Source: Saccharothrix violaceirubra
Lineage (GTDB): Bacteria > Actinomycetota > Actinomycetes > Mycobacteriales > Pseudonocardiaceae
DNA length: 64,000 nucleotides
Direction of reading: 5' to 3'
Assembly: GCF_014203755.1 (NCBI RefSeq)
Contig: NZ_JACHJS010000001.1
Coordinates: forward strand, 2,666,001-2,730,000
This document shows, one piece after another, positions 13,708 through 35,262 of this stretch (positions are counted from its first letter, which is position 1; each line of letters starts with the position of its first letter). Both the position numbers and the translations under genes were made by a program. A model generated the notes under the pieces. The model was not told where the DNA came from. It saw only the letters and a list, made by a program, of their open reading frames with translations, and ran no database searches.

Positions 13708-14277
13708 ATGCAGAGATCCCACGGTGCCGCCGTCGCCGCCGTCCTCTTGTGTGGACTGACCGCGTGCGCCCAACCGTCGGACGATCGGGCGTCCACCGCG
13801 TCCTCCTCGGAGGTGGCGGCGGGGCCGGTGCGGGCGAGCCTGTGCGACCGGCTCAAGCTCGCGGACCTGACCTCGTGGATGAAGATCGGCGGGTCGCCCG
13901 TCGACCAGGCGACGTGCGCCGCGCAGGGCAGCGGCGAGGCACGCGCGTACGGCCGCTGGACGTTCCCGTCCGGGTCCGTCGAGTACATCGAGATCGTCGT
14001 GCAGGACGACAAGCGCGCGGACGGCAGCCGGCTCTTCGACGAGCTGCGCACCGCGTACCCGGCCCACGAGCAGCGGACCGTGGCCGGGCACTACGCCCGG
14101 GTCGCGAACACCCGCGGCAAGACGCTGATCAACTTCCCGGACCTGGCCGAGCCGGTCGACATCGTCATCGTGACGAAGTCCACCTCGGGTACGGGCGCGG
14201 AGGAGACCTACGCCGGGATCAGGACGTCCCACTTCGGCGCGTTCGAACAGCTCGTCCCCGCCCTCGTCGGCGGCTGA
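13708..14277 (+). CDS. Small secreted lipoprotein
   Basis: This 189-residue protein has a lipoprotein signal peptide ending GLTAC, with Cys20 as the predicted lipid anchor. A Ser/Thr linker of about 20 residues follows, then a compact domain with two Cys residues (near LCDRLKLAD and ATCAAQG). Layout and Cys pattern resemble the DUF3558-type lipoproteins common in actinomycetes, but I cannot confirm the family. No good ribosome site precedes the ATG. It is flanked on both sides by hairpin terminators, so it should be monocistronic. Confidence 0.7.
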   Translation: MQRSHGAAVAAVLLCGLTACAQPSDDRASTASSSEVAAGPVRASLCDRLKLADLTSWMKIGGSPVDQATCAAQGSGEARAYGRWTFPSGSVEYIEIVVQDDKRADGSRLFDELRTAYPAHEQRTVAGHYARVANTRGKTLINFPDLAEPVDIVIVTKSTSGTGAEETYAGIRTSHFGAFEQLVPALVGG

Positions 14278-14287
14278 GCGGGCCTGT

Positions 14288-14319
14288 CCCGACACCCCGC
14301 CCCGCGTCGGGGTGTCGGG
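14288..14319 (+). terminator. Hairpin terminator after the lipoprotein gene
   Basis: A perfect 12-bp stem (CCCGACACCCCG and its complement) with an 8-nt loop starts 10 bp after the lipoprotein stop, in a convergent intergenic region. Confidence 0.7.
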
Positions 14320-14350
14320 GCGCGGCGCGGACGTTCACCCGGCTGAGGGA

Positions 14351-14454
14351 GCCTGAGCGCGTGTTTCGGGGTGCCTGAGTGGAGGACTCGCGCGCACGGT
14401 GACGCGGGCCGGTGCCGGAGCGCACGACTCGCGGTGTCCGAACGCATAACTCGC
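14351..14454 (+). repeat. 22-bp intergenic repeat cluster, copy A
   Basis: Full units lie at 14370-14391, 14411-14432 and 14433-14454, with a partial one from 14351. Each unit begins GGTGYCYGARYG and ends ACTCGC. The last two are directly abutting. The cluster lies between converging genes, as do the two related clusters at 19.8 kb and 34.1 kb. Confidence 0.75.
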
Positions 14455-14492: not shown

Positions 14493-14780
14493 TTATGACG
14501 CCCGCTGTCCCGCGGTGTGATTGTCCGCACGCGGTTCGAGGTGATTCGGCGGGTCCGGTGCGTTTGCCGACGGTTCGTGCCGGGCGCGTGCCGACGGCAC
14601 CAGAGCGCTGGCCGCCACGACGAGCAGCAAGCCGAACACGACGGGCCACCACAGGCCGTCCGCCAGTGCCAGCACGAATTGAATGACCGCCAGCGCCAGG
14701 AACGTCGCGATGAGCGCGATCACGGTCCACTCGCGGGTGTGCCGGCGCCGTGCGGGCCGAACTCCACCTTGCGTTCCCAA
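14493..14780 (-). CDS. Small two-TM membrane protein
   Basis: The protein has 95 residues. The best start is a TTG at 14780, because a near-perfect GGAGGT ribosome site lies 5 nt upstream. A basic N-terminus precedes two hydrophobic segments (VIALIATFLALAVIQFVLA and WWPVVFGLLLVVAASAL), and the C-terminal 30 residues are polar. Function is unknown. It faces the lipoprotein gene across the repeat cluster. Confidence 0.6.
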   Translation of the reverse strand: MGTQGGVRPARRRHTREWTVIALIATFLALAVIQFVLALADGLWWPVVFGLLLVVAASALVPSARARHEPSANAPDPPNHLEPRADNHTAGQRAS

Positions 14781-14934: not shown

Positions 14935-15276
14935 TCAGGAGCCGTGTGCCTCCTGGAACTTCAGCAGCAGGCTCTGGGGGATGCGGCCCCGCTCGGAGAC
15001 CTCGTGGCCCTCCTGGCGGGCCCATTCCCTGATCGCCTGGTTCTGCTCGCGGTCGCCGCCCGCCTTCACCGCGGTGCGGGAGGTCGCGCGCTGCTTGCGA
15101 CCACCGGCACGACGAGCGCCCGCCACGAACGGCGCGAGCGAGTCGCGCAGCCGGGTGGCGTTGTCCGACGAGAGGTCGATGGCGTACTCGACGCCGTCCA
15201 GGCCGAACGTCACGCTCTCGTCCGCCGTGGTTCCGTCCAAGTCGTCGATCAGTTCGACGATGGTCTTCTGGGCCAT
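14935..15276 (-). CDS. lsr2: Lsr2 nucleoid-associated protein
   Basis: This 113-residue protein has the classic Lsr2 layout. The N-terminal dimerisation domain starts MAQKTIVELIDDLDG and carries the FGLDGVEYAIDLS segment. A basic linker follows, and the C-terminal DNA-binding domain has the AT-hook-like RGR (about residues 98-100, in SERGRIPQ). Lsr2 binds AT-rich DNA in the minor groove and silences foreign genes, like H-NS. I start it at the ATG of MAQKT rather than five codons upstream, as is usual in the family. The gene stands alone, divergent from the desulfurase-like gene. Confidence 0.95.
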   Translation of the reverse strand: MAQKTIVELIDDLDGTTADESVTFGLDGVEYAIDLSSDNATRLRDSLAPFVAGARRAGGRKQRATSRTAVKAGGDREQNQAIREWARQEGHEVSERGRIPQSLLLKFQEAHGS

Positions 15277-19779: not shown

Positions 19780-19814
19780 GAGCGACGCCGGGCCTGAGCG
19801 TTCTCATCGGCGAC

Positions 19815-19893
19815 GGGCCCGAGCGTGTGTTTCAGGGTGTCCGAGCGTGTGTTTCAGGGTGCGTGTTTCAGGGTGCCGGAGTGGCGGACTCGC
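19815..19893 (+). repeat. 22-bp intergenic repeat cluster, copy B
   Basis: Full units lie at 19836-19857 and 19872-19893, with partial units at 19815-19834 and 19858-19871. Units start GGTGYCCGAGYG, as in cluster A, but several end TGTTTCAG instead of ACTCGC. The last unit overlaps the neighbouring convergent gene, so it encodes the C-terminal tail SRESATPAP of the TenA-like protein. Confidence 0.65.
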
Positions 19894-20539
19894 GCGAGTG
19901 GGCGAGGGTGTTCCAGAACGACAGCTCGTACGCGTGGAGGAGGCGGGCGTACCCGATGGCGCGGTCGGGGGTCCAGCCGGTGGCGAGCACGTCGTCCAAC
20001 GCCCGCAGGCCCAACGCGTCCAGCTCGGGCGCCGGTTCGGCGAAGAAGTCGAAGAACGCGGTGCCCTCGGCGTCGAAGCCGTAGTGCTCGCGCAGCGCCT
20101 TGGCGATCGCGGCGCAATAGCCGCCCCATTCGGCGAAGTTCGCGAGAATCGCCAGGAGGGCGTCGTGCGGGTCGCCGTTGAGCGTCAGCCAGGCCACGTA
20201 GGCCGGGTACGACTGGCAACCCGGAAGCGGCCGGTACGTGGCCAGGTCGTCGTCCGACAAACCGGTCGCGGCGGCGAAATCCCGCAGCTTCGCCAATGCG
20301 AGTCCCTCTCCCGAAGCCACGGTCGAGAAGAACTCGCGTTGCGCCTGGACGTTCGACTGCGCGGCCAAGGCGAGGAATGCTCGCCAATCGCTGCGCACGA
20401 TGTGGAACTCCTCGGCCGCGAACGCGCGCAAGGTCTCCACAGGGGCCTGACCTGCGGCGATGAGTGGAACCAACAGATTCTCGCCGCCGCCGATCTCCCG
20501 TCGGACCCGCGCCAGAAGTTCCGCGCCGCTTCCCGCCAT
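19868..20539 (-). CDS. TenA/PqqC-type haem-oxygenase-fold protein
   Basis: The protein has 223 residues and is all helical, with the TenA-like features FAAEEFHIVRSDWRAFLAL near the start and FAEWGGYCAAIAKAL near residue 140. TenA proteins hydrolyse thiamin breakdown products, and related folds oxidise cofactors. The catalytic Cys of true TenA is not convincingly placed, so it may have another role. The ATG has an AAAGGGGG site. The C-terminal tail is encoded by an intergenic repeat unit, which suggests that the repeat replaced the original 3' end. No thiamin genes or TPP riboswitch are nearby. Confidence 0.65.
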   Translation of the reverse strand: MAGSGAELLARVRREIGGGENLLVPLIAAGQAPVETLRAFAAEEFHIVRSDWRAFLALAAQSNVQAQREFFSTVASGEGLALAKLRDFAAATGLSDDDLATYRPLPGCQSYPAYVAWLTLNGDPHDALLAILANFAEWGGYCAAIAKALREHYGFDAEGTAFFDFFAEPAPELDALGLRALDDVLATGWTPDRAIGYARLLHAYELSFWNTLAHSRESATPAP

Positions 20540-32593: not shown

Positions 32594-34021
32594 ATGCGCT
32601 CGACAGCTCTGTACATCGACGGCCGTTGGGTCGACGGTGCGGATTCGTTCACCACGACCGACCCGGCGACCGGTGCGGCGTTGGCGCACGTGGCCTCGGC
32701 GTCGGCCGCGGACGTCGACGCGGCGGTCGCCTCGGCCCGCAACGCGCTGCCCTCCTGGACCGCGACCCCGCCGTCGGTCAAGGCCAAGCTGCTCTGGAAG
32801 CTCGCGGACCTGATCGAGGCCGACGGCGACGAGCTGGCCGCGCTCGAGACCAGCGACCAGGGCCAGCCGCTGGGCATCGCGCGCAACGTGAGCGTGACCG
32901 GCGCGGCCGAGCACTTCCGCTACTTCGCGGGCTGGGCGACCAAGATCGACGGCACGGTCAACACGGTGTCGTTCCCGAACACGCTCCAGTACGACCGGCG
33001 CGTGCCGGTGGGCGTGTGCGCGTTGATCGCGCCGTGGAACTTCCCGCTCATGATCATGGCGTGGAAGCTCGCGCCCGCGCTGGCGTGCGGCAACACCACC
33101 GTCCTCAAGCCCGCCGAGCAGACCTCGCTGACCACGGTCCGCCTGGTCGAGCTGGCGGTCGAGGCCGGCTTCCCGCCCGGTGTGATCAACCTGGTGACCG
33201 GTGGTCCCGAGACCGGCAAGGCGCTCGTCGCGCACCCCGGCGTGGACAAGGTGTCGTTCACCGGCTCCACCGAGGTGGGCCAGGCGATCGTGTCCGCGTC
33301 GGCGTCCGACCTCAAGCGCGTGACGCTGGAGCTGGGCGGCAAGACGCCCACCGTCGTGGCCCGCAGCGCCGACATCGACGCCGCCGTGGCCGGGACCGTC
33401 GCGGGCGGCCTGCTCAACAGCGGCCAGGTCTGCGCCGCCTACGCGCGGCTCTACGTCGACTCGAAGCGGCGGGACGAGTTCACCTCGAAGCTCGCCGCCG
33501 CCGTGGCCGGTCTGCGCATCGGCGCGGGTGCCGACCCGTCGACCGAACTCGGCCCACTGGTGACGGCCGAGCACCGGACCCGGGTGGACGGCTTCGTGCA
33601 GCGGGCGATCGCCGCCGGTGCGACGTTGGCGACCGGTGGTTCCGTTGTGGACGGACCGGGCAACTTCTATCACCCGACGGTCTTCGCGGACGTCAAGGAC
33701 GACATGCAGATCGCCCGCGAAGAGGTGTTCGGCCCGGTGCTCGCCGTGCTGGACTACGACGACGAGGACGAGCTGCTGGCGCGCGTCAACGACTCGCCGT
33801 ACGGCCTCGCGGCGGCGGTGTGGAGCGACGACCTGCGCTCGGCGCACCGGCTGGCCGACGGCATCCGCGCGGGTGCGGTGTTCGTGAACATGCCGTGCAT
33901 CCCGGACGCGGCGGCGCCGTGGGGCGGCTTCCGCTCCAGCGGCTGGGGCCGTGAGATGGGCCCGTACGCGATCGACGCGTACACCGAGGTCAAGGGCGTG
34001 TGGATCCACCACGGCGCCTGA
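32594..34021 (+). CDS. Aldehyde dehydrogenase, phenylacetaldehyde dehydrogenase-like
   Basis: This 475-residue NAD-dependent aldehyde dehydrogenase has the general base Glu in VTLELGGKTP and the nucleophile Cys in LNSGQVCAAYAR, a segment like that of FeaB. It has a strong GGAGGGGAG ribosome site. It lies 89 bp behind the FeaR-like regulator. With the amine oxidase 14 kb away, it would turn (hydroxy)phenylacetaldehydes into phenylacetates, feeding hpaD when the ring carries two hydroxyls. Other aldehydes are possible. The gene ends in a repeat array shared with the converging luxR gene. Confidence 0.82.
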   Translation: MRSTALYIDGRWVDGADSFTTTDPATGAALAHVASASAADVDAAVASARNALPSWTATPPSVKAKLLWKLADLIEADGDELAALETSDQGQPLGIARNVSVTGAAEHFRYFAGWATKIDGTVNTVSFPNTLQYDRRVPVGVCALIAPWNFPLMIMAWKLAPALACGNTTVLKPAEQTSLTTVRLVELAVEAGFPPGVINLVTGGPETGKALVAHPGVDKVSFTGSTEVGQAIVSASASDLKRVTLELGGKTPTVVARSADIDAAVAGTVAGGLLNSGQVCAAYARLYVDSKRRDEFTSKLAAAVAGLRIGAGADPSTELGPLVTAEHRTRVDGFVQRAIAAGATLATGGSVVDGPGNFYHPTVFADVKDDMQIAREEVFGPVLAVLDYDDEDELLARVNDSPYGLAAAVWSDDLRSAHRLADGIRAGAVFVNMPCIPDAAAPWGGFRSSGWGREMGPYAIDAYTEVKGVWIHHGA

Positions 34022-34082
34022 TCTCCTCCAGACACGCGTCGGCGGGCGCCCGATCCCCGAGCCCGCCGACGCGTTCCACTTC

Positions 34083-34231
34083 GCGAGTCATGCATTCGGA
34101 CACCGCGAGTTGTACGTTCAGGCACCGCGAAATGTGCATTCAGGCACCAAGGCTGTCCGGCCATGCCAGGCCGAGTGCACATTTCATGGTGTCCGAACGC
34201 ACAACTCGCGGTGTCTGAACGTATAACTCGC
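34083..34231. repeat. 22-bp repeat cluster, copy C, arranged as a large inverted repeat
   Basis: Three abutting units in minus orientation (34083-34104, 34105-34126, 34127-34148) face a partial unit (34173-34187) and two units in plus orientation (34188-34209, 34210-34231), separated by about 24 bp. Plus-orientation consensus begins GGTGYCYGAAYG and ends ACTCGC or TTTCGC. The two arms can fold into an imperfect stem of about 60 bp between converging genes, which could stop transcription from both sides. Confidence 0.8.
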
Positions 34232-34239
34232 GCGTTCGG

Positions 34240-35262
34240 TCAGATCCAGCCGGGGTCCAGGCCCCGGGTCAGGCGGGACAGTTCGCCCAGGCCGGTGGGC
34301 GAGGGGCGGACGTAGCCGGCACGGGCGGCCACGCCGGCGGCCTCGCCCCGCGACTGGCAGTCCAGCTTGGTGAGCAGCCGCTCGACGTAGGTCTCCACGG
34401 TCCGGCGTGACACGACCAGGCTCTCGGCGATCGCCTGGTTGCTCAGCCCGGCCACCAGACCGGTCGCGATGTCCAGTTCCCGCGCGGTCAGACCCGCGTG
34501 GTTCTCGAACGGCGTGCACGCGACGATGACGCCGCTGCGCGGACCGTCGACCACGCGCAGCAGCCGGACGCGGTACCAGCCCTCCCGGCCCGGCCACAGG
34601 AACGGCACCGTCCGCACGCCCAGGCCCGCGAACGAATCCGCCAGCGCCCGCAGCGCCGGGTCGCCGGCGATCGGCGCGGGGGAGCGGTCCGACACCGGCG
34701 CCACGGCCGGCAGCAGCCACGACGCCGACCAGTGCTCGTCGAACCACGCGTCGAAGCGCGGGCAGTGCAGCGGGTCGACGCGGCGGGCCAGGGCGGCGCC
34801 CACCGACGCCACGAACTCGCGGGTCTCCTCGGTGAACGAGTAGCGCACGGGTGCGTTCATGTGCAGCACGCCCACGACCTGCCGTCGGCCGACCTTCAAC
34901 GCCGCCGAAAGACCGTCCTCGAAACCGGCCGGCCTCAACCTTTCCTGGTAATGCGGTGAATCACGGAAATCGTGCGGCATGTTGTCGGTCATCAACAACG
35001 GCACGGCGGAATCGAACAGCTGGCCGCCCCACCGCGTCCGCGGCAGCTCGTGGGCCAGTTCCTGGCTGCTGGACCGGTTGTACCCGTCCTCGGCCATCAC
35101 CACGAAGCGGCGCACTACCGGGTCCCACCCGTTGATCTGCACGGCACACATCTGCGGCATCGCGGCGCGCAGTGCCCCGAAGACCTCTTCCCACTCCACC
35201 GCCGCGCCACTGCCCAGCGCGGAACCGAGTCGCACCGCCGCCGCGATGCGCGTGGAGTTCAT
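34240..35262 (-). CDS. LuxR-family regulator with GAF-like sensor domain
   Basis: The protein has 340 residues. Residues about 15-180 look like a GAF domain (QINGWDPVVRRFVVMAEDG, LKVGRRQVVGVLHMN). The C-terminal LuxR helix-turn-helix at about 265-325 has LTARELDIATGLVAGLSNQAIAESL-type sequence and SRRTVETYVERLLTKL. An AGGAGG site precedes the ATG. It stands alone between the repeat cluster and a 17-bp hairpin, next to the long catabolic operon on the same strand, and is a plausible regulator of it. No cognate kinase or receiver domain is present. Confidence 0.88.
   Translation of the reverse strand: MNSTRIAAAVRLGSALGSGAAVEWEEVFGALRAAMPQMCAVQINGWDPVVRRFVVMAEDGYNRSSSQELAHELPRTRWGGQLFDSAVPLLMTDNMPHDFRDSPHYQERLRPAGFEDGLSAALKVGRRQVVGVLHMNAPVRYSFTEETREFVASVGAALARRVDPLHCPRFDAWFDEHWSASWLLPAVAPVSDRSPAPIAGDPALRALADSFAGLGVRTVPFLWPGREGWYRVRLLRVVDGPRSGVIVACTPFENHAGLTARELDIATGLVAGLSNQAIAESLVVSRRTVETYVERLLTKLDCQSRGEAAGVAARAGYVRPSPTGLGELSRLTRGLDPGWI

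Follow-up and report, generated by a model that had tools for sequence, protein, structure and literature searches.

Saccharothrix violaceirubra (hereafter G000; 7.35 Mb, single contig) carries hundreds of copies of a 22-bp repeat, gathered into short polar blocks that have been copied whole around the genome and whose constant end often abuts a stop codon. The best reading is that they form a new family of dispersed repeats directed to the 3' ends of genes. They are probably non-autonomous, copied in trans by an enzyme, with their insertion or survival coupled to the ends of genes.

The family was noticed in a window of 64,000 bp (bases 2,666,001-2,730,000), in which a first-pass annotation had marked clusters of 22-bp units at 14351-14454, 19815-19893 and 34083-34231. 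Direct reading of the sequence finds all three at these positions. That they share 22-bp units is also correct, with the refinement that several units in the window are imperfect (14348-14369, 14411-14432, 19814-19835 and 19872-19893) and that only a 16-bp core is constant. Two degenerate 22-mers (up to 3 mismatches) match the window 9 and 13 times, where shuffled controls average 2.4 (at most 6) and 2.5 (at most 7). The family is real and far commoner than the window shows: the exact 12-bp signature GGTGYCYGARYG has 705 copies (333 + 372) across the whole genome, compared with 26 (14 + 12) for the pattern read backwards. Units and gene placement were read in five 400-kb stretches (2.0 Mb of 7.35 Mb, 27% of G000), where a position matrix detects 316 units, and 2 when the sequence is reversed. 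The G000 consensus is GGTGYCYGARYGCAYRACTCGC; in relatives the constant part is the 16-bp core, about YGARYGNNNNAYTCGC, and the 6 bp between cores form a linker that varies by genome.

A block consists mostly of 2-4 direct units and has one constant end (the tail, ...ACTCGC) and one ragged end (the head), the latter often a 16-bp core that lacks the GGTGYC linker. Defined by start-to-start gaps of at most 44 bp, there are 109 blocks of 2-6 units each. At exact 22-bp spacing there are 109 runs of at least two units (51 of two, 47 of three, nine of four and two of five), besides 27 lone units. Units are ordered within a block and fall into class A (...CACATTTCGC, CACAACTCGC, TATAACTCGC or CATAACTCGC) and class B (...TTTCRG units, closing with GAGGACTCGC). 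Chromosomal strand bias is not obvious, blocks on the plus strand numbering 16/39, 16/27, 4/7, 6/11 and 14/25 in the five samples. Density varies along the chromosome: blocks occupy 16 of 50 convergent gaps near 0.4-0.8 Mb and 12 of 46 near 6.0-6.4 Mb, compared with 5 of 42 at 2.5-2.9 Mb and 2 of 44 at 4.0-4.4 Mb, and the window falls in a sparse zone.

Clusters in the window and placement beside stop codons

As first described, all three window clusters lie between converging genes, as judged by a home-made gene caller. Cluster 1 comprises two blocks on the plus strand, one of two adjacent units ending in a B-type unit, GAGGACTCGC (14348..14391), and one of two A-type units (14411..14454). 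The tail of the second is 38 bp from the nearest minus-strand stop, that of a weakly called gene (14493-14723); the next gene, also on the minus strand, is Lsr2-like (14935-15276). This neighbour of cluster 1 encodes both the Lsr2 dimerisation and DNA-binding domains. An ordinary GC-rich hairpin read directly from the sequence (14288..14319) is separate from the array and lies just 3' of the plus-strand gene ending at 14277. Cluster 2 (plus strand) is made up of two TTTCAG-type units (19814..19857), a 14-bp partial unit (19858-19871) and a last unit (19872..19893). The minus-strand gene 19868-20440, TENA/THI-4-like, has its stop codon inside this array and reads through the last unit, which thus codes its C-terminal residues, as had been proposed. 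Cluster 3 holds two blocks placed head to head. The left block has three units pointing left (34083..34148, minus strand), its tail 61 bp past the aldehyde dehydrogenase stop codon at 34021, and a second ordinary GC-rich hairpin, again read directly, occupies 34035..34073 between the two. The right block (34172..34231, plus strand) is a 16-bp core (34172-34187) followed by two full units; the LuxR-type gene 34240-35262 has its stop codon 8 bp beyond the tail. The head-to-head stem of about 60 bp anticipated for this cluster does form in folding predictions, as a single stem of 63 pairs (-100.7 kcal/mol). At the corresponding site in G017 the same two genes are present, their aligned ends about 20 bp apart. 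An Rfam search of the window gave 0 matches at gathering score; two sub-threshold matches near cluster 3 are far below the cut-offs.

Placement was analysed against gene ends from the same caller, which is based on codon usage and was applied to 27% of G000. Blocks occur in 44 of 295 convergent gaps, 32 of 1145 codirectional gaps and 10 of 291 divergent gaps, so that the suggested preference for convergent genes extends beyond the window (convergent above codirectional, p 2e-13, and above divergent, p 1e-6; codirectional not above divergent, p 0.56). Divergent and intragenic positions are thus not used at equal frequency, and just 1 of the 109 blocks lies inside a predicted gene. When lone units are included, nine of 97 clusters were called inside genes: six lone units, two that overlap gene ends and one three-unit block.

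Convergence is not the sharpest description, however, since the tail adjoins a stop codon whichever way the neighbouring gene runs. The sharper rule is that the block tail abuts the stop codon. Tails face a stop codon in 81 of 108 blocks (55 with convergent and 26 with codirectional neighbours) and lie 2-5 bp from it in 34 of 108, where 9.3 would be expected if blocks slid within their own gaps. Under the same sliding model 8.9 heads are expected 0-6 bp from a stop codon, and 4 of 108 are found there. In the remaining 27 of the 108 blocks the tail faces a start codon instead, at varied distance, which counts against the explanation preferred here. Six more predicted genes stop inside a block, each with TGA and each 26 bp in: in genome coordinates 537041-537589 (-), 1646056-1647201 (+), 1762376-1764187 (-), 1963913-1965226 (-) and 6030401-6031906 (+), the sixth being the minus-strand gene of cluster 2, in the region 19869-20441 of the window. 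The stop codon itself is no obvious target, since TGA makes up 29 of 34 tail-adjacent cases and 1364 of 1736 predicted genes. Neighbouring blocks within 250 bp of each other in G000 are head to head in 13 cases, in the same direction in 9 and tail to tail in 0; four further pairs with outward tails lie 0.9-4.8 kb apart, with genes between.

One locus provides an empty site for comparison. Between two genes which, from gene order and sequence judged by eye, we take to be lpqB and comF, G000 has a three-unit block that runs from 3 bp past an intact stop codon to a conserved TTCACCCGATCG motif. Tandem cores are present at this site in 0 of the 22 relatives compared (of 24, less G005, which could not be aligned, and G021, which was omitted), which indicates a lineage-specific arrival of the block. 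A separate motif, TCACCCGATCG, recurs upstream of the comF-like gene in many relatives, and all 12 of its exact copies in 2.0 Mb of G000 are intergenic (e.g., genome 563709-563719, plus strand). It was rejected as part of the element, as a block head adjoins just 3 of these 12 copies.

Whole blocks are copied, and recur in relatives

The last units of blocks at different loci differ from one another by 2.88 bases (class A) or 1.92 bases (class B), and from the neighbouring unit of their own block by 4.03 or 8.94 bases. Being closer across loci than to their own neighbours, they reveal that blocks moved as blocks and not as single units. When a last unit is matched to the units of other blocks, its closest counterpart is itself a last unit in 61.5 of 76 cases (A) and 30.3 of 33 (B), ties being counted as fractions. 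The definition of the classes by the last unit flatters comparisons of last units with one another. Third units from the tail, in classes likewise set by the last unit, are no more alike between loci (5.8 and 5.51 bases for A and B) than to their neighbours (5.3 and 5.29). Local duplication of units may therefore contribute besides the copying of whole blocks. At one locus of a relative (L261), seven near-identical units stand in a row.

Among relatives the core and the 22-bp period are kept and the linker changes. A strict tandem of GGTGYCYGARYG is present in 6 of 390 genomes of the family and misses most relatives. A pattern built on the core picks up 42 of the 390 genomes, spread over 10 of 46 genera; 20 of these genomes have at least 5 matches, and the pattern is most frequent in G024 (202), G000 (180), G007 (134) and G185 (124); this count is a lower bound in one respect, as it misses G045, which has 30 strict tandems. 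Single core matches may be due to chance, since the reversed pattern also matches 3 of 390 genomes (G022 six times, G285 and G055 once each). In a class-wide sample of 394 genomes there was no match to the core pattern except in G000. A scan of a wider collection returned 37 stretches, 18 from Umezawaea, 3 from S. coeruleofusca, 1 from S. deserti, 1 from Actinosynnema and 14 others; the last group lack the core tail and are taken as chance matches. Searches of phage and plasmid collections gave no match at E 1e-5.

The tail rule recurs in Saccharothrix relatives, in Umezawaea and in G045. At loci picked from the top of match lists and not randomly, tails lie 0-8 bp from a stop codon in 5 of 18 Umezawaea blocks (with 2 more overlapping the stop), 4 of 6 in G045, 2 of 3 in S. 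coeruleofusca, 1/1 in G313 and 1/4 in G021, but in 0/2 in G013. A second set, likewise from the top of match lists, gave 7/24 in G024, 6/17 in G007, 5/11 in G002, 3/7 in G015 and 2/6 in G021, and in these five genomes together 5 of 65 heads are near a stop. The rule is absent from three genomes of two further genera (G185, G228 and G258; tails 2/32, heads 3/32). In G258, six loci (L333-L338) have palindromic versions of the unit placed tail to tail, and several of them share longer flanks, as if they were embedded in a larger repeated element that does not sit at the ends of genes. Tail-to-tail pairs of blocks are present in several relatives, with none seen in G000. At a locus in G338 (L304), another 22-bp tandem unit (...GAGAGCGTCAAACTCGGGGTGC...) directly follows core units and appears to be a further flavour of the family.

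Folding, mobilisation and competing explanations

The first-pass annotation suggested that the repeat is a mobile or amplifying terminator-like element. Amplification and dispersal are borne out; the resemblance to a terminator is not, as single blocks lack structure, hairpins and covariation. Against dinucleotide shuffles, blocks fold with mean z of 0.03 and 0.18 on the two strands, whereas ordinary post-stop DNA has a mean z of -1.26 (200 of 597 control sequences sampled), which leads us to reject the block as a structured 3' UTR. Strong inverted repeats (score at least 30) are found in 0 of 35 tail-adjacent blocks. Within the G000 unit there is no pairing covariation, with pair columns at or below the shuffled expectation, and its folding energy is no better than that of shuffles; nor is the unit a palindrome by the pairing test. 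The RNA hairpin was accordingly rejected for G000 by both pairing and energy. Nor is a C-rich site of the Rho type supported, pyrimidine-C steps amounting to 0.138 per nt in blocks and 0.186 in control post-stop DNA. A reading of the blocks as intrinsic terminators, or as hairpins that serve RNA stability, is disfavoured and highly unlikely, even though the units of G021 (both strands) and G045 (one strand) fold better than mononucleotide shuffles and cluster 3 folds into its extended stem. Such a long stem needs two head-to-head blocks, of which there are just 13 adjacent pairs among 109 blocks. Within these pairs the last units of the two arms differ by 4.46 bases, compared with 4.35 between loci (p 0.59, n=13), and 5 of the 13 are of mixed class (A with B), although in one pair both of the units compared are identical, as is the last unit in another. 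A selected long stem was rejected on this comparison, paired arms resembling each other no more closely than arms taken from separate loci, and the stem of cluster 3 is read as a by-product of two independent block arrivals.

Searches for a mover concentrated on two enzyme types, and neither tracks the repeat family. Y1 transposase genes (PF01797) occur in 2 of the 14 block-rich genomes and in 1 of the 14 block-free ones, and there are no tandem cores near Y1 genes in five loci of 3.1-3.4 kb. Reverse transcriptases within reach of the RVT_1 model are found in 6 of 14 block-rich and 9 of 14 block-free genomes, with none in G000. Both are unlikely movers, and the lack of a mobilising enzyme in these searches counts against the explanation preferred here, as does the absence of any target-site duplication visible to the eye in a few head-to-head loci. 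The Y1 results make it very improbable that the blocks are REP or REPIN elements moved by a Y1 (RAYT-type) transposase, a reading further opposed by units that are direct, not inverted pairs, and that are no palindrome. The likeness on which it draws is one of habit: in the portions of the REP literature covered here, REPs are described as short repeats outside genes that occupy convergent and codirectional gaps (PMC3733652), and the blocks too are short, abundant and extragenic in gaps of both kinds, although codirectional gaps are not enriched over divergent ones (p 0.56).

An origin as DNA transposon ends, whether remnant or non-autonomous, each end carrying several 22-bp sites for a transposase, would account for the direct sites, for the single constant outer end and for the 13 tails-outward pairs with 0 tail-to-tail pairs in G000; the ends of Mu and Tn7 offer a possible comparison. 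Most blocks are solo, however; the 13 head-to-head pairs among 109 have independent arms and do not amount to paired terminal inverted repeats, and several relatives also have tail-to-tail pairs. An autonomous copy might lie among the genes that separate the four outward-tail pairs 0.9-4.8 kb apart. Overall, transposon ends are an improbable source of the blocks. Selection at gene 3' ends is another reading, in which a phased array bound by a host protein ends or marks transcription, as a roadblock or boundary, in place of a hairpin terminator. It is favoured by tails that adjoin stop codons across several lineages and by the rarity of strong hairpins beyond the block, which are found for 3 of 35 tail-adjacent genes but for 52 of 209 convergent-gap genes that lack a block (p 0.03), while 11 of 47 head-side genes retain one. 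The deficit is not significant against codirectional controls (76 of 456, p 0.34), and only weakly suggests that a block could possibly replace a hairpin terminator. A roadblock 2-5 bp past the stop might moreover halt the polymerase inside the gene, most gene ends carry no block, and at the lpqB-comF-like site all 22 relatives compared do without one. Selection of this kind is therefore an unlikely account of the blocks.

The reading of the blocks as non-autonomous repeats copied in trans remains the preferred one. An enzyme would copy whole blocks, and the copies would either insert near gene ends or survive there after insertion. A convergent gene pair can receive two blocks independently; these then stand head to head and make a long stem possible. 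The spacing of 22 bp corresponds to roughly two helical turns of B-DNA. Together with the absence of RNA structure it suggests, though with less weight, that the active form may be duplex DNA to which a protein binds in phase, and not folded RNA. A bolder form of the proposal is offered tentatively: a mobile repeat of a class not described before, with insertion machinery that reads gene ends, might place a polar, protein-binding 22-bp array tail first a few bp past stop codons, so that in some lineages hundreds of genes would gain a 3' boundary other than a hairpin.

Relation to known elements

Several known systems share features with the blocks. REP, BIME and REPIN elements are likewise short, very abundant and extragenic, occupy similar gaps, have genome-specific flavours and sometimes form larger arrays, as far as the portions of their descriptions covered here go. 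REP palindromes carry a GTAG tag (PMC8266576) and inverted REP pairs lie beside RAYT genes (PMC3116915), according to the parts of these papers considered. The present blocks, by contrast, repeat directly in tandem every 22 bp, lack a palindromic stem, have no GTAG in the consensus GGTGYCYGARYGCAYRACTCGC and show no linked Y1 transposase. They also display tail-to-stop polarity, which does not appear in the same portions of the REP descriptions (PMC3733652, PMC3116915, PMC8266576). Intrinsic terminators of GC-rich actinomycetes also lie just past stops and between convergent genes, but single blocks lack a hairpin, and clusters 1 and 3 each lie beside the ordinary hairpin of a plus-strand gene. 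Iterons and transposase-binding arrays have a phasing of about 22 bp and occur at one origin or at the ends of an element. The blocks resemble them in having direct sites about two helical turns apart, but are dispersed in hundreds beside host genes. DNA uptake sequences are abundant single 9-12-mers, often near gene ends; the blocks share this abundance and gene-end proximity, but are tandem arrays.

Dispersed bacterial repeats are a known kind of element, and it is the placement rule of the blocks that is not met with in the portions of the descriptions covered. In the open-licence literature no description was recognised as the repeat family of S. violaceirubra, and the main text of the S. 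espanaensis genome paper uses the word “repeat” 0 times (PMC3469384).

The repeat family described here has neither a palindrome nor a link to a Y1 transposase, and is confined in the samples to one actinomycete family, where it expands separately in some species with a fixed polarity beside stop codons. Most explanations of dispersed bacterial repeats invoke palindromes and Y1 transposases. Either an enzyme inserts DNA at gene ends, or a host protein makes such DNA useful there, and both options are testable, since there are complete genomes rich in copies as well as close relatives that have none.
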